Shown one piece after another: positions 61 through 11,725 of a stretch of 64,000 bases of DNA (positions are counted from its first letter, which is position 1; each line of letters begins with the position of its first letter). Source of the DNA: Arthrobacter sp. MA-N2. Lineage in GTDB: Bacteria > Actinomycetota > Actinomycetes > Actinomycetales > Micrococcaceae. The position numbers were made by a program, and so were the translations under genes. The DNA lies in contig NZ_KI912155.1 of assembly GCF_000517125.1 (NCBI RefSeq), positions 1,052,583 through 1,116,582 of the forward strand, read 5' to 3'. The notes beneath the pieces were generated by a model. The model had not been told where the DNA came from. It saw only the letters and a list, made by a program, of their open reading frames with translations, and ran no database searches.

Positions 61-777
61 TCAGGCGAGATCGCGCTTGAGAAATACCCAGAATCCCGTT
101 CCGAGCGCAAAAGCGAGCCACATAGCTGCTCCAGCAAGGGAATCCAACCTCAGGCTTCCCACCAGCTCTTGGTTCGCCCAAACCGAGAGCAAGTTCGGGA
201 AAAGGAAGTCGGCGAAGTGCCCCAGCTGACGGCCCACAGCTGTCGGCAAAACAAGGCTCAAGGGCACGACAAAGAGGCTCAGGAGATGGTTGCGGATGAG
301 GGAACCAATCGCGAAGCCCCACAGCGACCCCATGCCGGACACCCCGGCGAAGGCCACCACCACGTGGGTGCTGACATGCCAGCGGTCAACCCCCAGTTCC
401 CCTGCCAGCCCGAAAAGCACGCCAATGGTTGTACCCGCCACCAAGGCCGCGACGGTGGTGGAGGCCGCCCGCCCGGTGAATGCCGCGCCACGCTGGAACA
501 CCAGGATGCGCCGATGAAACGATCTCGTGTTGAAATCCGAGGTAAAGGAGAAAGAGCCCACCACGGCCGCTGCAGTAAGCATCAGCGACAACCCGGCGTC
601 CAGGAGAATTCGATCACCGCCTGTCATCGCATGGCCGCTTTCCTCTTCCGGTTCTATCGCCGCCGCCACCACAAGTCCACCGATCAGGCCGGCCACGAGC
701 AACGTACCGATGGCCGATCCTTTCCACAACCAGGGACGTCGCAGATCAGACAAGAAGGCAGGTGCATAGTTGAGCAA
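61..777 (-). CDS. ABC transporter permease (daptide exporter subunit)
   Basis: A 238-residue, strongly hydrophobic protein with about six membrane segments and no nucleotide-binding motif. It is the last gene of the minus-strand RiPP operon. Its frame begins with TTG directly after the TAA stop of the upstream permease (same frame, TAATTG), and no in-frame ATG lies near the N-terminus, so TTG is the likely start and translation is probably coupled. With the next permease and the ATPase at 1512-2222 it should form an ABC-2 type exporter, by context for the mature peptide or self-immunity. Substrate is inferred from the neighbourhood only. Confidence 0.75.
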   Translation of the reverse strand: MLNYAPAFLSDLRRPWLWKGSAIGTLLVAGLIGGLVVAAAIEPEEESGHAMTGGDRILLDAGLSLMLTAAAVVGSFSFTSDFNTRSFHRRILVFQRGAAFTGRAASTTVAALVAGTTIGVLFGLAGELGVDRWHVSTHVVVAFAGVSGMGSLWGFAIGSLIRNHLLSLFVVPLSLVLPTAVGRQLGHFADFLFPNLLSVWANQELVGSLRLDSLAGAAMWLAFALGTGFWVFLKRDLA

Positions 778-1515
778 TTAGGCCCCCCTTCTCCGCAGCG
801 TCCACATCGCAGCTGCTCCTGCGGCCGCCAACCATCCCAAGGCGACAAGGAAAGCGGGCAATGGTTCAAGAAGACCTTCAAGGGGCAAGGATGCGATACC
901 GGCCAAGGCTCCGGACGGTAGCCAGTGCGCGATTTCAGGAAAATTCGCCATGAGCGGCAATTCCAAGACGAGCGGAATCAACATGGTGACTATCGTCGTC
1001 GCATAGTAATGCCTGATGATCCAGCCCAGCGAACAGCCCCACAAACACCCGACCACTGACGCGACGATGACGCCGAGCAAAGCACGCAAGGACTCGCCAC
1101 CTACTAGGTCAGCGCGGACTTCCGGGGAGACGATGAGCGCGACGCTGCCGCTCCAGAGCGCCACGCCTGTTGCAGCGGTGAGGAGCCCAACAACCAACGA
1201 GGCAATGTACTTGGTTCCCACAAGATGCCTCGGCCCGGACATGGCCACGCTTCGTCGAAGAGTCCCGTAGTAAGCCTCCCGAGTGACGATGTAGCTTCCC
1301 GCGAACGTGGCAACGATGGTGATCGTCGCGGCGAGTCCCCAGAAGGTTTGGACGTTTTGGGTCAAGGAAAGCTTGGCCGAATTGTCCGGCCAGCCGAAGA
1401 AATTGGCGACAAACCACGGCACCAGCGCCGTGAATGCCAAAACGCCCAGGGCCGAGTAGCCGCTGAAGTACCTGAGCAGCTCCGCCCGGAGTCCGCCCGC
1501 GAAAGCCGGATTCAT
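778..1515 (-). CDS. ABC transporter permease (daptide exporter subunit)
   Basis: A 245-residue integral membrane protein with about six predicted helices, resembling ABC-2 type permeases of small-peptide exporters. Its ATG overlaps the stop of the ATPase gene (ATGA, 1512-1515), and its own stop abuts the next permease, so the three transporter genes are translationally coupled. The pair of unequal permeases with one ATPase is common in lantibiotic/RiPP export or immunity modules. The role in peptide export is inferred from position in the cluster. Confidence 0.78.
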   Translation of the reverse strand: MNPAFAGGLRAELLRYFSGYSALGVLAFTALVPWFVANFFGWPDNSAKLSLTQNVQTFWGLAATITIVATFAGSYIVTREAYYGTLRRSVAMSGPRHLVGTKYIASLVVGLLTAATGVALWSGSVALIVSPEVRADLVGGESLRALLGVIVASVVGCLWGCSLGWIIRHYYATTIVTMLIPLVLELPLMANFPEIAHWLPSGALAGIASLPLEGLLEPLPAFLVALGWLAAAGAAAMWTLRRRGA

Positions 1516-2222
1516 CGGACTCCCTCCAGAATCTTGAAATACGCGGCTTCCAGGCTCCCGCCGCCAACGGCCATGGCATTCTCAAGAGACCCGCGGAACA
1601 ACATCCGTCGCTTGAGGATGACCACTTCGTCGGCTATTTGTTCCAGCTCCGTCAACTGGTGGCTGGAGACCAGGACGCTCCCTCCGGAACTCGCGAAATC
1701 CCTCAGGAAGGACCTCAGCCATTGAATACCGTCGGGGTCCAGCCCATTGGCCGGTTCGTCGAGGACAAGGAGCTTGGGGCTGCCGATTATTGCCGAGGCG
1801 ATGCCTAGCCGCTGCCTCATCCCGAGGGAGTAGTCCCGGACTTTCCTTTTCCCGTGAGCCGTCAGATCGACCAGTTCCAGGACCCGATCGACGTTCTCGG
1901 GCGAGGTGCCGGCAGCGAGCTGACAAATCCGGAGGTGGCGGCGGCCGGTGAGGCCGGGTTCGATGTCCATTCCGTCCAGGTTCATTCCAACTTTGGTGGC
2001 CGGTTTTTGCAGGGTTCGATAGTCGACTCCAAAAACCGTCGCACGCCCGGATGTCGCCTCCAACAGGCCAGTCAGGCCCGCGAGCGCAGTACTCTTTCCG
2101 GCACCGTTAGGGCCGATCAGTCCCACAATCCGCCCAGCGGGGACCTCAAACGTCAGGTCTTCGACGGCGAAGCTTGTGCCGCGTTTCTTGCTGAACCGGT
2201 CGAAAGTCGCGTGGATTGTCAT
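1512..2222 (-). CDS. ABC transporter ATP-binding protein
   Basis: A 236-residue ABC ATPase that should energise the two permeases downstream. Walker A GPNGAGKST is at residues 37-45, the signature region SLGMRQR at 132-138, Walker B LLVLDEP at 151-157, and an H-loop histidine in SSHQL follows. Length fits a stand-alone ATPase of the multidrug/bacteriocin-export (CcmA-like) type. The start ATG overlaps the stop of the metalloprotease gene (ATGA, 2219-2222). Function as peptide exporter or immunity pump is inferred from context. Confidence 0.88.
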   Translation of the reverse strand: MTIHATFDRFSKKRGTSFAVEDLTFEVPAGRIVGLIGPNGAGKSTALAGLTGLLEATSGRATVFGVDYRTLQKPATKVGMNLDGMDIEPGLTGRRHLRICQLAAGTSPENVDRVLELVDLTAHGKRKVRDYSLGMRQRLGIASAIIGSPKLLVLDEPANGLDPDGIQWLRSFLRDFASSGGSVLVSSHQLTELEQIADEVVILKRRMLFRGSLENAMAVGGGSLEAAYFKILEGVR

Positions 2223-3916
2223 TGCATTCCTTTCCCGGAGTGGGTGATGGCTTGTCCGAATCCGTCAGGCCAGAGCGGAGAATTCGAGGCGGTACTCCAG
2301 AGCCACTCCCCCAGCCCGAGCACCCTCTTGCTGGTCACCTCGGCCCTTCCAGAGACCGGTAGATCGGCAGAACCTTCAAGGCACCCCTGGTAGGCCAGCA
2401 CGGGAACGTTCGTGCCGGGTAACGTCACCGGGAGGATGGTCTCCAGGGGTGCAGTGGAGTTCGACGGCGGCTCCGCCCCGATGGTTGCCCGTGCCAGTTC
2501 TTCGTGAACAACCATTCCCTGGGATTTCAAAGTCACCGCGTCCCCTGGCGCGATTGCTTGAACGGGCGATCCGTTGGGGGTTACGATCTTCAGTTCGCCG
2601 TTGCTATAGGTGTAACCGGCTACCACCACCGACGTCACCGGAATCGCGGTGAGAAGCCCGGCCGCGGCAGCAGTCCCAAGGAGCAGCAAAGCAATCCGCC
2701 GCCATGCCGGACTCCCCCTCCTTGAGGCCGAGCTCAAGAACCGGGTGACTCCTTTCGCCGCCACCACAAGCAAGAGACAAACAACCACAAACACCACGAT
2801 GTGCCCGGCGTATCCGAGCTGCAGAACAATTGGGATAAGTCTCTGGAAACCGATGACCATAAAGGCGATCCCCGATAGGAGGCTTGCGCCTCCGAACCAT
2901 GCGAAGAGGAATTGGCCTCGGGTATGGACACGTGAACCGAGAAGGCGGTGACTGACGACGTCGGCCAAGGCGGTGATCGATTTGCGCCGTAGGTGGGGAA
3001 TGTCGAGGGCTGACATCAACGCTATGTATCCGTCCATCTTGATAAACGGAAAGAGATTCAGGACGGCTATTGCATAGCAAATGATCCCGTACAGGGTTGC
3101 TGCGTCCCTCAGCGATGTCGCTGGCATCAGGCTTTGGACCGCCAGCGCCACGCTCCCCAGACCGAGATGAACGAGAGGTCCGGCCAGCGCAACCAGCACC
3201 CTCTGTTTGCGCGAACATAGTCGCCATCCGTCCGTCACGTCGCAAAAGAATGCCGGAGCGAGGTAGAACAGCATGATTCCGATACGCCGGGGCGTGCCAC
3301 CGAAATAGACGAGTGCCATTCCATGGCCGAGCTCGTGCAGCAAAGTGGAGGCGAACATCGCGACGGCGACGAACAGATAGGCCTCCAAGGGCAGTGGCGT
3401 TGCCAACACCCGCAAAAGATTTGGCCCCGCTGTCAAAGCGCCAACGATACCGCTGGCCACGAGAACAGCAGCTGCAGCGAGGGCACCTGGGCGAACCATG
3501 GCTGCAACCGCGGGACGGAGGACCTTGAGGAAGGGAGCGGGATTGAAGAGCGTAAGCTGCACGGTCAGAGGAGCCCGGAACTGGATTCGCCGCGTTTCTG
3601 CTCGGCTCCCGGTCACGTCGAAGACACCGGTGTGAACGAGTTGGCGGACAATCCCCCTGACATCATCGGCAGTCCATGGATTGCCGAGGTGGTGGGCTAC
3701 CTGGGCGGGGTCCTTCTTTCCGTCCAGGGCTCTGAGCACGTTGGCCACATCGTGCGAGACCCTGGCTTTGGGCACCCCGTTGATCGCCACGATCCATGGC
3801 CCGTCGGCCTGCAGGGGTTCATCAACGGATGCAGATGGGGCCAGCTGCACGGGCCACTGAACGGCCGTTCGCCTGTCTGAAGTTCTTGTCATGGTTGTTT
3901 CTCGAGCAGGGTTCAT
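2219..3916 (-). CDS. mpaP: Daptide biosynthesis intramembrane metalloprotease (MpaP-like, M50 family)
   Basis: A 565-residue polytopic membrane protein. Residues about 35-105 look like a PqqD/winged-helix peptide-recognition domain. The membrane part carries the site-2 protease zinc motif HELGH at 194-198 and the partner motif NLFPFIKMDG at 287-296, whose Asp is the usual third ligand. A soluble C-terminal domain of about 120 residues follows the last helices. In daptide clusters this family is proposed to remove the leader peptide. It is coupled by ATGA overlaps to YcaO upstream and the ABC ATPase downstream. A second in-frame ATG eight codons in is an alternative start. Confidence 0.82.
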   Translation of the reverse strand: MNPARETTMTRTSDRRTAVQWPVQLAPSASVDEPLQADGPWIVAINGVPKARVSHDVANVLRALDGKKDPAQVAHHLGNPWTADDVRGIVRQLVHTGVFDVTGSRAETRRIQFRAPLTVQLTLFNPAPFLKVLRPAVAAMVRPGALAAAAVLVASGIVGALTAGPNLLRVLATPLPLEAYLFVAVAMFASTLLHELGHGMALVYFGGTPRRIGIMLFYLAPAFFCDVTDGWRLCSRKQRVLVALAGPLVHLGLGSVALAVQSLMPATSLRDAATLYGIICYAIAVLNLFPFIKMDGYIALMSALDIPHLRRKSITALADVVSHRLLGSRVHTRGQFLFAWFGGASLLSGIAFMVIGFQRLIPIVLQLGYAGHIVVFVVVCLLLVVAAKGVTRFLSSASRRGSPAWRRIALLLLGTAAAAGLLTAIPVTSVVVAGYTYSNGELKIVTPNGSPVQAIAPGDAVTLKSQGMVVHEELARATIGAEPPSNSTAPLETILPVTLPGTNVPVLAYQGCLEGSADLPVSGRAEVTSKRVLGLGEWLWSTASNSPLWPDGFGQAITHSGKGMQ

Positions 3917-5160
3917 ATCAACGGATGAGGCGTTGAGGCGAACGCGGTCCGACTCGACGGCCCGTCAGGGCTGTTCGGAACGAAGTGCAGTCGCTTGGAT
4001 TCGTCCATCGTCAGGGGGAACGCACCTGGACAGATTGCCTTGCCCGCTTGCCAGCCGAGCGCTTGGATCGCTGACGGAAGCCTGTGGGTGAGGCTGACCC
4101 AGTGCGAGGTGATTCCTTTCCGATTCAGGTACCGCACCAAGTCGTCCACATCGGGCTCGGGGTGAGCACGGGGCAGCGGCGATTTCGAGAATGTCTGCAC
4201 CCATCCGCGGAGTTCATCGATGGCGGGACCCGTGGTCCAGAAGTCCGCCCTCGCTTCGTCGTTCGTCACCCCTGAATCGCCTGTGCCTGAGGAGGGAGAT
4301 CTGGCAAGGAGGAGTTCCCGGATTTGGAGCGCTTCCTGGAGGGCTCCCCGCAAGGCAGAAATGGGGTCGGAGGATGCCTTAAGGCCCACGGCACCGAACT
4401 GGCCATTCTCAGTGTCATCCAGAATTACACCCACTGCGGTCTCCAAGGGGCCGTCGTCGTTGGGGACAAAAGCGAGCGTGGCGTGGATCCCGGCGTCGAG
4501 GACTGTTCTGAGGAGCCTGGTGAACCTGAGGGTTGACGGATCACTGCGCAGGGACACAGGGATGTCTTTCATGGTGAACTCCTTGAGCGGTGTCCTCCGG
4601 CACCAGGCCCATAAGAAGGCATCCCGCTCAATGATTTCCGCGATTGCGGTGATCTTGGCGAAGCGTTCCGAGGGTCCTGCTGCCGCGCCGTTCGGGGATG
4701 GATCGAAGTACCGGGCGACGGGCGTTTCTTGAGGAATTCCGCGGGGGCTGTAATCCACCACCGGCGCCGGAATATGCGATTCATTCCCTGAAACCAAGTC
4801 CACTGCCCGGTACCACGGAATCTCGAAACCGAGGGCCGAGGCGTGTCCAAGTCCGGCTGACACGAAGTCAATCCGCTTTTCCTGACAGGGTGTGGTCACG
4901 AGGAGGTGTCCCGAATCGGGCGGCACCGGAACCAGCGCGAATCGCTCTACCGCTTCGCCGGCTCCCCTGGTGAGGGACCGCCGCCTGTTGGCGTCGAATG
5001 CTCCGACGGCGGAAGAGAACCCGGAGGAGTGTTCCGCGGTCCCCCGGTCATTGGCCAAATGCGCTACCGTGCGCCAAAGACCGACCTCGTTCGGGACGTA
5101 GACCCGCGCGTCGGAAACCAAGCCCAGGGAAGGATCCAAGGTCCGTGCTGGGTCGATCAT
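3913..5160 (-). CDS. YcaO-family cyclodehydratase/thioamidation-type protein
   Basis: A 415-residue YcaO-domain protein (421 residues if the upstream ATG at 5178 is used). I prefer 5160 because its ATG overlaps the methyltransferase stop as TGATG. ATP-site signatures are present: S-x6-E-x2-ER near residues 62-73, AEIIERD near 174-180, and the LQEALQIR block near 274-281. YcaO enzymes activate backbone amides with ATP to make azolines, thioamides or amidines. No partner (Ocin-ThiF, E1-like or TfuA) is in the window, and the three precursors contain no Cys, so the modification is unknown. It sits between MpaM and MpaP, which suggests it acts on the same peptides. Confidence 0.85.
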   Translation of the reverse strand: MIDPARTLDPSLGLVSDARVYVPNEVGLWRTVAHLANDRGTAEHSSGFSSAVGAFDANRRRSLTRGAGEAVERFALVPVPPDSGHLLVTTPCQEKRIDFVSAGLGHASALGFEIPWYRAVDLVSGNESHIPAPVVDYSPRGIPQETPVARYFDPSPNGAAAGPSERFAKITAIAEIIERDAFLWAWCRRTPLKEFTMKDIPVSLRSDPSTLRFTRLLRTVLDAGIHATLAFVPNDDGPLETAVGVILDDTENGQFGAVGLKASSDPISALRGALQEALQIRELLLARSPSSGTGDSGVTNDEARADFWTTGPAIDELRGWVQTFSKSPLPRAHPEPDVDDLVRYLNRKGITSHWVSLTHRLPSAIQALGWQAGKAICPGAFPLTMDESKRLHFVPNSPDGPSSRTAFASTPHPLI

Positions 5161-5984
5161 CACGTCCCGCACACCCACATTTCAACCCCGTTCAGCGAAC
5201 GGACCAGCGAGGGGATCCGAACAGCACGTCTTTCGCGAACGTGCAAACCCTCAGCGTTGAGTTCCGCTTCAATGACCTCATTGCGGACGTAAGCTATCTC
5301 GCTGGCATACGCGCTTGAGCGGTATGTCCTTCCTTCATCAAAATCGACCTTGATCATGGTCACATGCCGTGTTCCGTTGCCCGGATCCCGGCGTTCAATA
5401 GTGAACAGGATCGAGTTGCAGTCAAGCACCGAATATCCAGCCTTCGTTCCGCCCTGATCATGTGGCTGCTGCCCGGATTGCTCCGCGTCCAGGACCGTGA
5501 GCACAAAGCGGCCATCAGGGCTAAGGCGATCGCGCACTCGACGAAAGAGCTCCCGACGCTGCTCATGAGACAGAAGCGTTACCGAACTGGCTCCTAGGAC
5601 AATGCAGCCGAACTCATCATGAACATGAAGCCGGGACATGTCGGCTTCGATGACATCCACGGCGACCCCTTGAGGGTTAAAGGATCGGGTCGCGGCTCTT
5701 TCCCTCAGCATCTGCAGCATTTCCGGTGAAGAGTCAACGGCTGTCAACGGACGCCCCAGGGCGAGGAGTGCCCTGGTAATCCTGCCGGACCCTGCGGCCA
5801 ATTCGAGGATTGGTCCGGTCGTTTTCCTTGCGGCCCCCAGAATCTCAGGAAGCTCGGAAAGGTCAGCAGCAGTGATCTTGTCGTAAAGGCGGGAACCCTC
5901 AATGCCGTACAGGTCCTCAGGGGGATCCCCGTGACCGATGGCGCGCAGGATGTCGTCAGCAGTCTCGTTGCTTGCGTTTCTCAT
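5160..5984 (-). CDS. mpaM: Daptide-type RiPP biosynthesis methyltransferase (MpaM-like)
   Basis: A class I SAM-dependent methyltransferase of 274 residues, with motif I (ILELAAGSGRI) at about 59-69 and a post-motif-I acidic AVDSS at about 79. In daptide biosynthesis the methyltransferase dimethylates the new C-terminal amine. The start at 5984 is chosen over one at 6065 because the longer form would extend into the hairpin at 6021-6065 and the last precursor. It is the first gene after that hairpin, so it is probably expressed below the precursor level. Assignment to MpaM rests on family plus cluster context. Confidence 0.82.
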   Translation of the reverse strand: MRNASNETADDILRAIGHGDPPEDLYGIEGSRLYDKITAADLSELPEILGAARKTTGPILELAAGSGRITRALLALGRPLTAVDSSPEMLQMLRERAATRSFNPQGVAVDVIEADMSRLHVHDEFGCIVLGASSVTLLSHEQRRELFRRVRDRLSPDGRFVLTVLDAEQSGQQPHDQGGTKAGYSVLDCNSILFTIERRDPGNGTRHVTMIKVDFDEGRTYRSSAYASEIAYVRNEVIEAELNAEGLHVRERRAVRIPSLVRSLNGVEMWVCGT

Positions 5985-6020
5985 CAACTCGTACTCTCGG
6001 GAGGCACATGGGGGACGGGT

Positions 6021-6065
6021 GTGCGCGCGGGTGGCGAATATGAGCGCTTCCCCACCCGCGCGCAC
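6021..6065 (-). terminator. Hairpin between precursor genes and mpaM (candidate partial terminator)
   Basis: A perfect 14-bp inverted repeat (GTGCGCGCGGGTGG at 6021-6034 and its complement at 6052-6065) with a 17-nt loop lies 3 nt past the last precursor stop. It has no U-run on the minus-strand transcript. It may stabilise the precursor transcript 3' end or attenuate read-through. Confidence 0.7.
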
Positions 6066-6068
6066 GGA

Positions 6069-6206
6069 CTAGGTCGCGGCGATGCCAACGGCGATGCCGG
6101 CGATGATGATGACGTCACCGGCACGGATGTACCACGGAGTGTCGTCAGGTGTGTCGAGGTTCTCCAGTTCTTCAACGGTCAGTTGAAGGTTTGAGGTTGC
6201 AATCAT
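6069..6206 (-). CDS. Daptide-type precursor peptide 3
   Basis: A 45-residue precursor that starts after a strong ribosome-binding site (AAAGGAGGAG), so the longer 63-residue reading is rejected. The leader holds the block LQLTVEELENLDTPDD shared in form with the two other precursors. The core is hydrophobic and helix-forming and ends GIAVGIAAT with a terminal Thr, the residue known daptide enzymes convert to the C-terminal diamine. There is no Cys. It is the last of three tandem precursors, directly before the hairpin. Confidence 0.9.
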   Translation of the reverse strand: MIATSNLQLTVEELENLDTPDDTPWYIRAGDVIIIAGIAVGIAAT

Positions 6207-6260
6207 TTCTCCTCCTTTCAACGGTGTTTCTGGGCGTCGGATAGTTGGCTGTGCGTCCAT

Positions 6261-6386
6261 CTAGGTGATGCCGACGGCAATGGCGCCGATGGCCACACCT
6301 TGGGACACCCCGAGGAACCAATTGTTGAAGTCCGGTGTATCCATGGATTCGATTTCCTGGATGGAGATATTGAGCTGATCTTGCAT
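6261..6386 (-). CDS. Daptide-type precursor peptide 2
   Basis: A 41-residue ORF beginning MQDQLNISIQEIESMDTPD and ending GAIAVGIT followed by TAG. It shares the leader pattern L-x-[IV]-x-E-[LI]-E-x-[LMI]-[DE]-x-P-D with its neighbours and has a Gly/Ala/Ile/Val core with C-terminal Thr and no Cys. A GGGGGTG Shine-Dalgarno lies upstream. It is easily missed because it is short, but the three-fold repetition of pattern next to mpaB and mpaM makes it convincing. Confidence 0.9.
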   Translation of the reverse strand: MQDQLNISIQEIESMDTPDFNNWFLGVSQGVAIGAIAVGIT

Positions 6387-6432
6387 TGTGTTCACCCCCT
6401 TTTGTTTCGTTTGCCTCATTTGTCCCGCCGCA

Positions 6433-6576
6433 TCAGGTGATGGCGACGCCGAGTCCGACCAGAGAGAGCCCTACTGTGATTCCGTGGATACGTTCGCTCC
6501 AGTCGTCCGGAACTTCGATGCTTTCCAACTCCTGAATTTCAAGGTCCAGAAGCCTTGGTGCGCCGCTGCTGTTCAT
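6433..6576 (-). CDS. Daptide-type precursor peptide 1
   Basis: A 47-residue ORF with leader block LDLEIQELESIEVPDD and core GITVGLSLVGLGVAIT. It ends in Thr, has no Cys, and is preceded by a GGGGGTG ribosome-binding site at normal spacing. It begins only 4 nt after the mpaB stop, so precursors and enzymes are co-transcribed. Core length of roughly 20-25 residues and an amphipathic or hydrophobic helix fit membrane-active daptides. Confidence 0.9.
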   Translation of the reverse strand: MNSSGAPRLLDLEIQELESIEVPDDWSERIHGITVGLSLVGLGVAIT

Positions 6577-6580
6577 GTGT

Positions 6581-7795
6581 TCACCCCCTTTCCCTTACCA
6601 CTCGTTGGTGGCCCACTGGGCTTGGCAAGGCTCGCTGCATGTTGCTGGCTTTCCGGAGGACGCGCAGGATGTGGACCCCGTCGATTCCGTGCAGCATGGG
6701 TAACACCCGGCCCCAGCGGCTGACGGCCAGGTTGGCTGTTTTCATGGCAGTCCGTTCGCTCAGTTCATCGAGCCCGCGAACTCCCCATCGCCGCATCAGC
6801 TCCTTGATTCCACGGGCAGCATTGCGGCCGAGCGAGGGGTCAACACTCGCTACCGCGGACCACAGGGCGGCCAAACGATGGGGGTCGCCCCAGGCGGTGG
6901 CGCCGTTTTCAATCTCGTCCCATATCGCTTCAATGACAGTGGCGGTTGCGGTCATTTTCCGCACACCCGTCACGTACGCCAGTTCATTCGCGACGTACCA
7001 GTGTTTGGCCCCATACGGGTTGCGAGCGATGAGCGACCATCCGGTGTGGGTTTCCATGCTCAACCGAGCCGCAGCAAGCCGCAGCTCAGGGGAGTCTTCG
7101 CGCGTCAAGCGATTCCCCAACCGCACCATGCGCACCAGAACCGAGAGCGCGTCGTCGTCGAAAATACTCGGGGAACTGCCGATCAGCGTTCCGGCCACCC
7201 GGAGAAGCGCTTCGAGCAGCCCTTCGAGCACCAGCTGCCGCGGGAGGGTGGACAAATGGCCGGCATCAAGTACCGCGACGTCACCTGAAAGGTGACGTGA
7301 AGCAATCAGGTGGCGTCCGACGTCGGTGTCCAGACACGCTACAGCGCTGACTTCGGCGCCGGTTCCCACAGTGGACGGCATCAGAATGGTTCTGGGACGA
7401 GTATTTGGCTCGGCCCCGAAAGGCAGGACGATGAGGCCCGATCGCTTGGCGTGACGCGCCGCGAATTCAGCAAAACACCGATCGGCTGTGAAGAGCGCGG
7501 AGATTTTCACCGCGTCCAGGACGGAACCGCCCCCAAGTCCCACAACGGTGGTGAGGTCGTAGCCGCGGATAAACTCCTCAACAAGCCCTAGCGTCGTGAA
7601 AGAGACAGGCCGCGCGTCGAGCTCCAGGACCGGCATTCCCTTGAGATCCCCATTCAGGAGTCGATCCCGGTGTTCCGGGAGTGCGCGGTCCACAACAAGT
7701 CCGGTCCGCCCACGGATCAGAGTGCCGACATATCTGGCAGACGTTCCCTGATCGAGAATGACGCAGCGCGTGTTCCAGGTCCGGTCGGCGATCAT
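6581..7795 (-). CDS. mpaB: Daptide-type RiPP biosynthesis dehydrogenase (MpaB-like, Fe-ADH fold)
   Basis: A 404-residue protein of the iron-containing alcohol dehydrogenase fold: a nucleotide-binding GLGGGSVLDA stretch at 86-95, then an STVGTGAEVS block typical of the family. Daptide work assigns MpaB the oxidative decarboxylation of the C-terminal Thr to an aminoketone. The usual metal-site pattern (DALxHxxE, then HGxxH and PHG) is not apparent; the matching region reads EALLRVAG and AKHWYVAN. This suggests a changed active site. Its ATG overlaps the aminotransferase stop (7792-7795). Confidence 0.84.
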   Translation of the reverse strand: MIADRTWNTRCVILDQGTSARYVGTLIRGRTGLVVDRALPEHRDRLLNGDLKGMPVLELDARPVSFTTLGLVEEFIRGYDLTTVVGLGGGSVLDAVKISALFTADRCFAEFAARHAKRSGLIVLPFGAEPNTRPRTILMPSTVGTGAEVSAVACLDTDVGRHLIASRHLSGDVAVLDAGHLSTLPRQLVLEGLLEALLRVAGTLIGSSPSIFDDDALSVLVRMVRLGNRLTREDSPELRLAAARLSMETHTGWSLIARNPYGAKHWYVANELAYVTGVRKMTATATVIEAIWDEIENGATAWGDPHRLAALWSAVASVDPSLGRNAARGIKELMRRWGVRGLDELSERTAMKTANLAVSRWGRVLPMLHGIDGVHILRVLRKASNMQRALPSPVGHQRVVRERG

Positions 7796-9081
7796 CCGAA
7801 GATCCCGTCCCGATGGGCGGCGCTGAGACCGCCTGCGATTGCCGCATGGAGTTCCTCAAAGTTCTCTTCCGTGAAGACCAAGGCCGGAAGGAGTTGGATC
7901 CTCCCCGGTCCCGGCTGCACGATTGCGCCAGCCTGATGAATATGCCTCACGACGGCCAGGACACCGTCTGCTGACAGCGGTTCCCCCTGCGCTGTTTCCA
8001 GTTTGATGCCCCGCATGCAGCCCCGACCGGTTATGGTGCTGACGCCCGGAATGCCCATGAGCCGGACAATGAGGCGATCAAGTCCAGCCGAGACCACTGC
8101 CCCGAGACCCTGAAAATCCACGCTTTTTAGTTCGTCAATGGTCGAAAGTATCGCGGCGCACGTGGCCGGTGTTCCTGCTTGGGTTTCTCCATGGACAAAG
8201 ACAGATTCCGTGGAATCGAACTTCCGGGTTACTCGCTGTCCAATCAGAAGGGCGGCACACGCACTGGTACCGTTCGTCATGGCCTTGGACGTCACAATGA
8301 TGTCCGGGGCCGTGGGCCATTCGTCCGAGACAAACCATGAATTCACTCGTCCGAAGCCCGTGGCCACTTCATCTGCGATGGCCAGGAAGCCGTGCTCCTC
8401 CCGGAAGGTCAACAAGGAACGCACGAAGCTCGCTGGCACGACGTCCGCCCCGGATCCAAGGACAGGTTCAACGATGACTGCGGCCACTCTGTGGCCTTCC
8501 CTGCGCATTAATAGCGCCAGTTCGGCGCCCCCATCGTCGAATCTGATGTGCCGTATATTGCGGCGGTCCACCCCGTAGATCGTCTGAGCGAGGTGGTCAC
8601 CGCTGAGAGCCTGGCTCCCGTAGGTCAGCCCGTGATAGCTACCGGCCAGCCCTACGATGATTTTTCGCTCGGGTTGTGCGTCCAAGAGGAAGTATTGGCG
8701 CGCGAGCTTCATGCCGGCGTCGTTGGCAGCACCCCCGGAAGTAGAGAAGACCACCCTCTCGAAGGAGTGGGCCGGGAGTGAAAGCAGCGCGTTTGCCGCC
8801 TCGATTGCTTTGCGATTCGCAGTCCGGAACAACGGAAGATAGGACGCTGCCTCAAGCTCTCTGGCAATTGCACCGGCAATTCGCGCGTTACCGTAGCCGA
8901 GGTTGGTGTTCCACAGTCCACTCTTTGCGCACAGGCGTCGTTGCCCGTCTTCAAAATCTACGTGGACGCCATGGGCCCTGACGGCAGTGTAGCTATCGAC
9001 GGGAAAATTGTGTTGGGTAACAAATGGTACCCAGAGCGGAAGTCGGGTGCTGGGGGTATCAAGGGCGGGTGCGGCAGTCAT
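7792..9081 (-). CDS. mpaD: Daptide-type RiPP biosynthesis aminotransferase (MpaD-like, class III)
   Basis: A 429-residue PLP-dependent class III aminotransferase. Visible motifs are the cofactor Asp in ADEVATG (about 237), the Schiff-base Lys in SKAMTNG (about 266) and the phosphate-binding STSGGAAN near 113-120. In the daptide pathway it aminates the ketone left by MpaB to give the C-terminal 1,2-diamine. Overlap with mpaB and 58 nt spacing from mpaC place it in the same operon. The fold is clear; the substrate comes from context. Confidence 0.87.
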   Translation of the reverse strand: MTAAPALDTPSTRLPLWVPFVTQHNFPVDSYTAVRAHGVHVDFEDGQRRLCAKSGLWNTNLGYGNARIAGAIARELEAASYLPLFRTANRKAIEAANALLSLPAHSFERVVFSTSGGAANDAGMKLARQYFLLDAQPERKIIVGLAGSYHGLTYGSQALSGDHLAQTIYGVDRRNIRHIRFDDGGAELALLMRREGHRVAAVIVEPVLGSGADVVPASFVRSLLTFREEHGFLAIADEVATGFGRVNSWFVSDEWPTAPDIIVTSKAMTNGTSACAALLIGQRVTRKFDSTESVFVHGETQAGTPATCAAILSTIDELKSVDFQGLGAVVSAGLDRLIVRLMGIPGVSTITGRGCMRGIKLETAQGEPLSADGVLAVVRHIHQAGAIVQPGPGRIQLLPALVFTEENFEELHAAIAGGLSAAHRDGIFG

Positions 9082-9139
9082 CAGGTGTCGGTCCTCGGAA
9101 TTGGACGGGCGGTGGCCGGCAAGTTGACGTTTCTGGAGC

Positions 9140-10183
9140 TCAGCCGGCGCCGAAAACGTCCACGCCTGCCCGTTCGAACTGTTCTAGGACGGCTCGTGTG
9201 GATTCCTCGGCTGCCGCTACGGAAACGCCCAGGGCAGCAGCTACCGCAGACGCAGCGAGCTGGAGATGCCGCAGATTCGAGAGGGCCTCGATGATGGCCG
9301 CCGCATCAGGTCCAACCCGGAAAGTCCGGCCCGACGCGGTGTCCAGGAGTGTGTACTGTCCATCGCTGTGGATGATGAAGGGAGCCCGTGGTGAGGGGAG
9401 ATCGTCAGTGGGCGATGCTCCGTAGACGCTGGCGCCAAAGCCGACAATCGTAGCTTTGGAGCGATCGTCCCGGGGAATGAATTTCCAGGCATCCAGTGCA
9501 GCCAAGTAACGGGGAATCCAAGGCCGGGCGCCGAGGGAATCACGAACAGCCTCCGCATCACAGACAGAAGCCAGTGCAGATTCCGGTTCCAGCGCGAGGC
9601 ACCTTGTCCGAATGTCTGCCAACGAATCGCCCGCCTTGCCAACAGTGGATCCGTAGGGACCGCTGAGTACCGTTCCGTCAGATGCGATGTGGAGCCTCGC
9701 GAGGGGGGAACCAACGCTTTGACCGCCGTCTAGAAGGCCGCGCTCTGCAAAGACGGCGTTGACTTCGGTAAGCTGCCACACGAAATGGCCCGATCGTCGA
9801 GCTTCTTCTGCGTCGTCGAAGAAGGCCTGCCAGTCTTCAGAAGTAGTAATCCTGACAACCGTGACTCCCATGAGGCTGATGAACGGAATGGCCAGGTAGT
9901 CCTGGACCTCGAGGCTGAGGCTGCCAGCAACCAACAGCTCTTCCCCGACGACATCGAAGAACCCCGAGACCGGAACCACGGTGTCTTCATCGGCGCCGTT
10001 CCCGCCGTCGAGCACGAAGACGATCGATTGCTCGCCGGCAAGCTCCTTTGCATACGGAGCGTGCTCAGGATTCTCAACGAAGATTGCATGATCCGGAATT
10101 CGACCGGGAATGCCCGTAATCCACTGGTCCATCGCTGCGCCAACCGCCTGTTGCTGACTTAGTTTCACTTCCCAATCCCCCAT
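9140..10183 (-). CDS. mpaC: Daptide biosynthesis RiPP recognition protein (MpaC-like)
   Basis: A 347-residue protein with no catalytic motif that I recognise. The last 75 residues, from about SDGQYTLLD to the end, have the pattern of a PqqD-like winged-helix RiPP recognition element, which would bind the conserved leader block of the three precursors and present them to MpaB/MpaD/MpaM. It is the first gene of the operon; transcription probably starts within 10184-10320. Assignment to MpaC is from the RRE-like C-terminus and gene order. Confidence 0.75.
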   Translation of the reverse strand: MGDWEVKLSQQQAVGAAMDQWITGIPGRIPDHAIFVENPEHAPYAKELAGEQSIVFVLDGGNGADEDTVVPVSGFFDVVGEELLVAGSLSLEVQDYLAIPFISLMGVTVVRITTSEDWQAFFDDAEEARRSGHFVWQLTEVNAVFAERGLLDGGQSVGSPLARLHIASDGTVLSGPYGSTVGKAGDSLADIRTRCLALEPESALASVCDAEAVRDSLGARPWIPRYLAALDAWKFIPRDDRSKATIVGFGASVYGASPTDDLPSPRAPFIIHSDGQYTLLDTASGRTFRVGPDAAAIIEALSNLRHLQLAASAVAAALGVSVAAAEESTRAVLEQFERAGVDVFGAG

Positions 10184-10599
10184 AAGTTGCGTCCTGTACC
10201 GGCACCGTGGAAAGGCCCTCCGATGATCGGCGGCACGGGACCGTCCTTGTGTAGGAGACTAGGGCCGCAAAAACGGCCTCCGTGTAAAAAGGGGGAAATT
10301 CAGTGCTGACGGACCAGAATTAAGGGTGGAATCGGGCAATCTACGTGTGGCTGGGGATGGTTCTCCGTGTAGATCGGGGATGTGCAAAGACAAGCTGCCT
10401 CGTTGGGGTATCCCCGACAATGCCAGGCCCAGCGTTCCGTATCGCTTCTCCACTCGTAGCGCATTGCGTCCCTCACGCCTTACCCCCAGATCCCGCGCTG
10501 GTATTCAGGGAAATACGATGCCGCGTACCGGGACGCGACCCGCAGCTCAGCGATGTCGCCATCATCAACTTCGAGAAAACCGAATCGACAGTACTCGGC
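10184..10599. other. Intergenic region upstream of the daptide operon
   Basis: About 415 bases with no supported gene. It must hold the promoter of the minus-strand operon, but I see no convincing -35/-10 pair. A short hairpin (GGCCG / CGGCC) sits at 10263-10278 on a run of A/T bases. The distal part grades into the transposase remnant. Confidence 0.4.
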
Positions 10600-10970
10600 G
10601 AAAGAGAAAGCAAACTATTTTCGCCGGCTGGATCGCGGGGAACTGTTCGGGCTGTAGCGGCCGAACTCGGGCTTAACGTCGACGCGTGTTATCGCTGGCG
10701 TCACGAGACGGGCCCATCGACCGCGCGCGGGAAGAACCGGACGTACTCGGCCGAGGACAGGTCGGAGTTCTTCCGACTCCTGCATTGCACGGGAACGTGT
10801 CGGCGGTCGCGAAGATGCTGGGTTTCGTCCGGGTGACCTGTCCCAAATGGGCGCATCAGGCGGGTCTATTCACTGGCCGGAAAATTTAAGCGCAACGGAC
10901 CGAATTCCTCCAGTTGCGCGCTGACGGAGCCAGCCGGGCGGCAGCGGCGCAGAAGTTGGCGGACGACAAG
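10600..10970 (+). pseudogene. Decayed transposase fragment (tandem helix-turn-helix N-terminus)
   Basis: Three reading frames together give a transposase-like N-terminus: GTVRAVAAELGLNVDACYRW, then after a frameshift near 10795 GNVSAVAKMLGFVRVTCPKW, then past a stop EFLQLRADGASRAAAAQKL. Repeated short HTH motifs of this kind are typical of IS30-like and related actinobacterial transposases. No catalytic domain follows. It is a broken remnant next to the RiPP cluster, consistent with the cluster lying in a variable region. Confidence 0.6.
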
Positions 10971-11188: not shown

Positions 11189-11725
11189 TTAGCTGGGCGG
11201 AGCTGACTGTCGCACGTTCGATCCTGCGGCGAGTAGCCATCGACCGGCATTGGTGCATTGAGCGACGACTGTCAGTATTCCGGAGCCGCTGGGTACGAGT
11301 TTCGTCTGGTCGCCATTGCTAGGCTGACTCAGGTCCCATGTCCCGTAAAGTGTGGAAACTGATTCAGACACCGACTTTCTCTCGACGCCTCTGAGAACCA
11401 GCTTGGCGGGCGCAAGCCGACTGCTGAAGGCCTTGGCATGGCCCTCTTCTATACCGGAACGATTTTTCATAACCGTCCCGTAGATATTGATGAACTGGGC
11501 TTCGTCCGTGAACAGTGCGGCTAGAGCCGGAGCATCGTGCCGATTGAATGCTTCAACAAATTCACTCATGAGAGCCTCTGGAGCAGCCTGGCAGGAGCTG
11601 CTCGAGCCTGTCGATGACTGTGGTTGCGCGAAGGAACATCCAGAAAGGGCAAGCACTGCCCCGATAGATAGGGCCACCGGCACCGATAACCCGGCAAACG
11701 TCTGTCTGGTAAGAGCAGCCATCAC
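11189..11725 (-). CDS. SnoaL/NTF2-like lipoprotein
   Basis: A 178-residue secreted protein: hydrophobic signal segment ending in lipobox LSGC at about residue 30, a Ser-rich linker, then an NTF2/SnoaL-like domain beginning LMSEFVEAFNRHDAPALAALF and running about 120 residues. The family includes SgcJ/EcaC-type small proteins of unknown role. It stands alone on the minus strand between the transposase remnant and the glyoxylate operon. I cannot tell its ligand. Confidence 0.7.
   Translation of the reverse strand: MMAALTRQTFAGLSVPVALSIGAVLALSGCSFAQPQSSTGSSSSCQAAPEALMSEFVEAFNRHDAPALAALFTDEAQFINIYGTVMKNRSGIEEGHAKAFSSRLAPAKLVLRGVERKSVSESVSTLYGTWDLSQPSNGDQTKLVPSGSGILTVVAQCTNAGRWLLAAGSNVRQSAPPS

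Follow-up and report, generated by a model that had tools for sequence, protein, structure and literature searches.

What end group do the peptides of a daptide cluster receive when a YcaO gene stands among its tailoring genes? This question is raised by a locus of Arthrobacter sp. MA-N2 (contig NZ_KI912155.1, positions 1,052,583 to 1,116,582), analysed here as a window of 64,000 nucleotides. Judged by family models of its genes, positions 61-10183 of the window, on the minus strand, are a daptide cluster, a class of ribosomally synthesised and post-translationally modified peptide (RiPP) clusters. We consider it quite probable that this cluster yields three hydrophobic peptides in which the C-terminal Thr becomes mainly a 3,4-dimethylimidazoline (Diz), the N,N-dimethyl-1,2-propanediamine end (Dmp) being a predicted side product. 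Diz-capped products are likely because the cluster carries a YcaO that groups with those of daptide clusters, and because the published DapY enzymes convert the monomethylated intermediate (Mmp) to an imidazoline. Daptides, daptide clusters bearing a YcaO gene and Diz itself are already published; worth testing here are a kind of DapY that ends in PHPLI and a conserved triad of precursors.

Gene content and class of the cluster

In the direction of transcription the genes run B-D-C-A1-A2-A3-M-Y-P-T1-T2-T3; all are open frames, and adjacent genes mostly overlap or almost do.

B: 9140-10183, minus strand; DapB homologue, accessory protein with a C-terminal RiPP recognition element (RRE; PqqD-like, residues 274-341); NF041823 daptide_RRE, 217.4 bits (cut-off 150)
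D: 7792-9081, minus strand; DapD homologue, class III (pyridoxal phosphate) aminotransferase; NF041821 daptide_amino, 528.6 bits (cut-off 450)
C: 6581-7795, minus strand; DapC homologue, predicted oxidative decarboxylase of the C-terminal Thr with the iron-dependent alcohol dehydrogenase fold; NF041822 daptide_DH, 323.9 bits (cut-off 300)
A1: 6433-6576, minus strand; precursor, predicted core DDWSERIHGITVGLSLVGLGVAIT (24 aa); NF041808, 27.9 bits (cut-off 25)
A2: 6261-6386, minus strand; precursor, predicted core DFNNWFLGVSQGVAIGAIAVGIT (23 aa); NF041808, 36.1 bits (cut-off 25)
A3: 6069-6206, minus strand; precursor, predicted core DDTPWYIRAGDVIIIAGIAVGIAAT (25 aa); NF041808, 51.8 bits (cut-off 25)
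M: 5160-5984 (longest frame to 6065), minus strand; DapM homologue, S-adenosylmethionine methyltransferase; NF041820 daptide_MTase, 245.5 bits (cut-off 175)
Y: 3913-5178, minus strand; DapY homologue, YcaO protein of 421 aa with the C-terminus PHPLI; PF02624, 99.8 bits (cut-off 25.7)
P: 2219-3916, minus strand; DapP homologue, M50-type intramembrane protease of 565 aa; NF041824 daptide_HExxH, 365.4 bits (cut-off 300)
T1: 1512-2222, minus strand; ATP-binding cassette (ABC) transporter ATPase; PF00005, 93.8 bits
T2: 778-1515, minus strand; permease-like membrane protein; homologue at the matching place in 12 of 15 relatives
T3: 61-777, minus strand; second permease-like membrane protein; homologue at the matching place in 12 of 15 relatives

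The class was judged by the curated NCBIfam cut-offs, with equivalog models for B, D, C, M and P and the model NF041808 (daptide_123) for the precursors. The first-pass annotation of this DNA had proposed three Thr-ending frames with a common leader, amid an RRE protein, an aminotransferase, a dehydrogenase, a methyltransferase and an M50 protease that together resembled a daptide set. The frames were confirmed at exactly the proposed coordinates, 3 of 3 passed NF041808, and all five enzymes scored above their daptide cut-offs, thus matching daptide and not unrelated families. The assigned class, the identity of the precursors and the roles of the enzymes were upheld; the Dmp end that had been assigned to all three peptides is probably not the main product, given the daptide-side YcaO, whose gene (3913-5178) was missing from the earlier gene list together with the ABC transporter genes (61-2222).

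The comparison set comprises 15 other Micrococcaceae clusters, loci L011-L023 found by way of the YcaO (Arthrobacter, Paenarthrobacter and Sinomonas among them) and L092 and L093 found by way of the aminotransferase. The order B-D-C-A1-A2-A3-M-Y-P is identical in 16 of 16 clusters, window included, and Y always lies between M and P. This fixed order, and the presence of a daptide aminotransferase over the cut-off in 13 of 396 genomes sampled from the order, mean that the daptide cluster is not due to chance. The transporter genes T1-T3 adjoin the cluster in 12 of the 15 relatives, where T1 is 76-88% identical; they were not found next to L012, L013 and L023.

Some details of the gene models follow. 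The match of B to the PqqD family PF05402 (22.5 bits) is slightly below its cut-off of 23.4, and T2 and T3 gave no Pfam or NCBIfam match. The long methyltransferase frame (5160-6065) begins within the spacer behind A3; since its match to NF041820 starts only at residue 49, the ATG at 5984 appears the likelier start. Each of the precursor genes A1, A2 and A3 is preceded by a purine-rich stretch resembling a ribosome-binding site (AAAGGGGGTGAACACATG, AAAAGGGGGTGAACACAATG and GAAAGGAGGAGAAATG, respectively), and scans for promoters and terminators stayed at chance level.

The YcaO protein and the C-terminal end group

A protein search with the window YcaO recovered at least 64 relatives at E <= 1e-10 (7993 candidates scored). 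Among the matches listed, the first 56 (four of them short) are 51-75% identical and those named come from Arthrobacter, Paenarthrobacter, Sinomonas or "Micrococcaceae"; the remaining ones are 32-35% identical, with Streptomyces and Microbacterium among those named. The Y proteins of the 15 relatives are 53-74% identical to that of the window. At the same threshold a YcaO was found in 25 of 295 sampled genomes of the family, four of the matches being strong (E < 1e-160) and the others weak.

Scanning the named genomes with a YcaO alignment gave 37 loci, to which clusters from the order and class samples were added, and a maximum-likelihood tree was built from 69 of the 74 YcaO rows (five dropped; SaDapY lay outside the data set). 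One branch (100/100) parts 46 daptide-side rows, including those of the window and of Thermobifida fusca, from 23 azoline-type rows. The azoline-type rows end in PxP[FY]P or similar; the daptide-side C-termini are PxP[LV][IV] in 32 rows (the window among them, and not one clade in the tree), PxPLP in 11 and other in 3. The T. fusca YcaO falls within an 11-row subclade ending in PxPLP (100/98). A daptide aminotransferase occurs in the same locus for 33 of the 34 daptide-side rows recovered solely through YcaO similarity, the exception (L030) lying near a contig end; the 12 other daptide-side rows are the window or come from aminotransferase searches, and so were excluded from this count. By the 100/100 branch, the window YcaO is placed with the YcaOs of daptide clusters, apart from the azoline-type ones. 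Two daptide clusters of the order carry, on the opposite strand and beside the methyltransferase, a divergent YcaO with the C-terminus QPLI (L098:11-997 and L099:15-959), and with the azoline-type rows as the outgroup, these two and L044 together branch off first within the daptide side.

The NCBIfam SagD model gave 79 bits on the window YcaO, far below its cut-off of 219. An AlphaFold2 model of the protein (mean pLDDT 85.7) matched LynD (4v1v, E 1e-15, the best), MjYcaO and MkYcaO in Foldseek. The motifs GEAVER, E..ERDA and QE.LQ, which we take, helped by an alignment to MJ1094, to form the ATP/Mg site of YcaO proteins, are invariant in 15 YcaO rows.

In the published systems, homologues of B and C take the C-terminal Thr to an aminoacetone, D takes this to 1,2-diaminopropane and M methylates it (PMC12670281; PMC10036551); TfDapY and the SaDapY of Streptomyces azureus turn the Mmp intermediate into the C-terminal Diz, Dmp being a side branch, and the cyclised form Miz is not methylated by M (PMC12670281). 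By analogy, the RRE protein B of the window would hand the precursor to the dehydrogenase C, whose oxidative decarboxylation would turn the C-terminal Thr into aminoacetone; the aminotransferase D would produce 1,2-diaminopropane from this, and M would add one methyl group to give Mmp. With ATP, Y would then activate the preceding amide and cyclise the secondary amine onto it to yield Diz; a second methylation, to Dmp, would compete with this ring closure. The protease P would cleave behind ELExxxxx and T1-T3 would export the peptides, whose predicted [M+H]+ values with a Diz cap are 2459.38 (A1), 2300.26 (A2) and 2522.41 (A3). For the Dmp forms the predicted monoisotopic values are 2491.403, 2332.281 and 2554.439, respectively.

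Several points weigh against this assignment. The window Y shares 32% identity with its T. fusca counterpart, and it ends in PHPLI instead of the PxPxP reported for both TfDapY and SaDapY. We know of no characterised YcaO of the PxPLI/V kind. The presence of Y in 13 of the 15 relatives is no independent evidence, as the YcaO search had found them. Each core has an internal Ser or Thr whose position is occupied by S or T throughout the Micrococcaceae clusters (16 of 16), and azoline formation is therefore compatible with the residue content. Lastly, three of the four azuritides of S. azureus end in Diz and one (SaDapA3) in Dmp although SaDapY is present (PMC12670281), so that not all three peptides of the window need carry Diz. 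As to the C-terminus, the same paper describes PxPxP as shared with azoline formers and not as a definition of DapY.

It is unlikely, in our estimate, that the locus is a plain daptide cluster in which the YcaO is inactive or minor and all three peptides end as Dmp. Every enzyme needed for Dmp is present, SaDapA3 offers a precedent (PMC12670281) and the last residue of the window YcaO deviates from PxPxP, but the YcaO gene is an open frame that retains the ATP-site motifs, and of the sampled family genomes with this cluster type found by the aminotransferase, all three besides that of the window (G063, G137 and G150) have a YcaO. Very unlikely is a daptide-azoline hybrid, in which the YcaO would form oxazolines or methyloxazolines from the conserved internal Ser/Thr. 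Azoline-forming YcaOs are reported from some daptide clusters (PMC12670281) and the top Foldseek match, LynD, is a heterocyclase; however, the window YcaO groups with the daptide YcaOs and not with the 23 azoline-type ones, no E1-like partner or azoline dehydrogenase was detected among the nine cluster proteins scanned, and the C-terminal Thr is the sole residue conserved among the tfDap and saDap cores (PMC12670281).

For the choice between Diz and Dmp, a rule based on the penultimate residue was considered and rejected. In a first sample, A-T or L-T endings prevailed in the clusters without Y, and I-T, V-T or T-T endings in those with Y; L101, which lacks Y and sits on a short contig, ends in I-T as well. 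The rule was broken by the class-wide sample, in which the Y-free L129, L134, L135 and L137 end in I-T or V-T and the Y-bearing L034 and L025 in A-T; its failure is in line with the "no obvious sequence trend" stated for this choice (PMC12670281).

The cluster that probably yields Diz shares with saDap of S. azureus (compared through its published description) and tfDap of T. fusca (compared through locus L039 of strain NBRC 14071, the paper using DSM 43792) the DapBCDMPT enzymes with a YcaO, precursors with a C-terminal Thr and ELExxxxx leaders. It differs by a third transporter gene, by three precursors against four or five, by the place of Y (between M and P, behind P in L039) and by the PHPLI end; the lanthipeptide dehydratase and the monooxygenase described for tfDap are not among the nine window proteins scanned. 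The mpa cluster of Microbacterium paraoxydans (daptides 1-3) has likewise three precursors and the BCDMPT enzymes; as described, it holds the primary enzymes only and yields Dmp, whereas the window has a YcaO besides. No paper naming a daptide together with Arthrobacter was found in the literature searched; a supplementary list of 1,034 published clusters lay outside this search and may include the present ones. Ribosomal peptides with an imidazoline end were described in 2025, in two organisms; by the same account no imidazoline had been seen in a RiPP before (PMC12670281). The window cluster hints at a larger section of the DapY group that is still uncharacterised.

Three precursors kept as a set

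A1, A2 and A3 share the leader pattern E-[LI]-E-x5 and all end in Thr; the cores were predicted by cutting behind the ELExxxxx motif. Applied to one of the five T. fusca precursors (L039:1823-1966), which we assume to be TfDapA1, this rule gives 26 + 21 residues, the published TfDapA1 lengths. The daptide cluster L101, which lies on a short contig, has very hydrophobic short precursors (L101:6855-7468, for example MQKRELDLGVRELETLDAAWVIIIPIIIIIT), and by the cleavage rule their cores would have only about 10-18 residues.

The same three precursor types, in the same order, occur in the 15 other Micrococcaceae clusters. The first-pass annotation had announced three new peptides, to be doubted if their precursors were absent from close homologous clusters: the precursors are present there, and the peptides are new as sequences, cores closely similar to these three being found in all 15. 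It had also proposed a comparison with the mpaA precursors; made through the NCBIfam models, this places those of the window below the 40-bit cut-offs of the specific Mpa models (A1 with Mpa1, 22.8 bits; A2 with Mpa2, 17.0, and with Mpa1, 17.7; A3 with Mpa3, 29.7), Mpa1 being the best specific NCBIfam model for A1 and Mpa3 for A3. The A3 rows scanned matched Mpa3 in 11 of 11 cases, yet Mpa1 and Mpa2 too, and the A2 rows matched both Mpa1 and Mpa2 (11 of 11), which leaves the A2 type unsettled by these models; as a test of precursor types they were set aside, discriminating poorly for the A2 and A3 rows scanned.

Selection on the precursors was estimated from the ratio of nonsynonymous to synonymous polymorphism (pN/pS) in the 16 clusters. 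For the cores this was 0.16 (A1), 0.11 (A2; 15 clusters, one length variant excluded) and 0.10 (A3), and for the last 14 leader codons 0.19, 0.11 and 0.12, respectively, values that indicate purifying selection at the sequence level. Identity to the window is 85-90% for A2 (73% in L012) and 82-93% for A3 (9 of the 15 relatives aligned), mostly above that of the enzymes B to P (53-83% in all 15 relatives); A1, at 64-83%, is near the enzyme level. From the low pN/pS and these identities, A2 and A3 above all appear to be held and not diversified.

Outside the Micrococcaceae, the order-matched pairing with the window precursors was the best of the six possible ones in the Y-bearing Microbacteriaceae loci L034 and L041 and in the Y-free L100, L103, L104 and L105 of one family of the order, in part by narrow margins (116 against 114 in L034, 116 against 106 in L104). 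It was not the best, another pairing being best or tied, in L036, L043, L047 and L102. A conserved triad as a general daptide rule was rejected, the order-matched pairing being best in 21 of the 25 loci for which precisely three precursors were parsed, and the triad-bearing clusters are mutually related, hence not independent events. In a residue-shuffle control, order-matched scores were higher than any of 300 shuffles in 24 of the 25 loci (in L102, 3 of 300 reached the score); loci that fail the order test pass this control too, and it therefore says nothing on precursor order.

The precursor finder returned none in L026, L029 and L038 and none convincing in L032, L033 and L040, and its second version missed some precursors seen by the first (L100, L104 and L105). 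Four of these loci (L026, L029, L033 and L040, from Amycolatopsis and Lentzea) have the order B-M-D-C-Y-P-T1-T2, without a convincing precursor by motif search; their precursors may have differing leaders or sit elsewhere.

Haemolysis by some mixtures of daptides 1-3 exceeds that by each peptide alone (PMC10036551). Taken with the conserved types and order of the triad, this suggests, without showing it, that the three peptides probably act jointly on membranes. The conserved set makes it testable why daptides come in sets.

A second daptide cluster and the flanking DNA

The same genome contains a second daptide cluster, L010 (G000:C1:904000-923000), with an aminotransferase of 571.7 bits and, all open, B, M, D, C, a pair of precursors with Leu-Thr ends, and P. 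It is distant from the window cluster (48% identity in D, 27% in C) and has no YcaO, the sole YcaO match of the genome at E <= 1e-10 being that of the window. Compared with its relative L091, positions 8946-9139 of L010 encode a 28-residue stretch resembling the beginning of T1 (46%) and, 8 bases on, a 34-residue stretch resembling the end of T2 (68%); with the T1 start abutting the T2 end, most of the exporter genes of L010 appear to have been deleted. A YcaO-bearing and a YcaO-free cluster in one genome form a natural pair, the second cluster being the control, for asking what decides between imidazoline and tertiary amine. We put forward tentatively, and at somewhat less than even odds, that the three-peptide ensemble, fixed from Micrococcaceae to Microbacteriaceae, is one membrane-directed unit, whose Micrococcaceae members are imidazoline-capped by the PHPLI kind of DapY, the tertiary-amine peptides coming from the YcaO-free second cluster of the same cell. 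If true, both C-terminal chemistries coexist in one cell, split between clusters.

That the window cluster is decaying or silent and makes no product is least likely of all: transposase-like remnants upstream of B (seen by eye only) and the loss of most of T1 and T2 in the second cluster would fit it, but all genes are open and pN/pS is low in leaders (0.11-0.19) and cores (0.10-0.16).

Directly left of the window, beside T3, lies a second ABC ATPase and permease pair (L009:7381-9473). It was rejected as a part of the cluster: the permease had no match in the five relatives examined (L011, L012, L013, L014 and L019), and the ATPase is only 35% identical to an ABC ATPase near the L011 cluster. 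On the other side, the stretch upstream of the RRE gene that by eye looks like transposase remnants spans 10260-10900 of the window, and a gene with a DUF4440/SnoaL-like domain lies at 11189-11725 on the minus strand.

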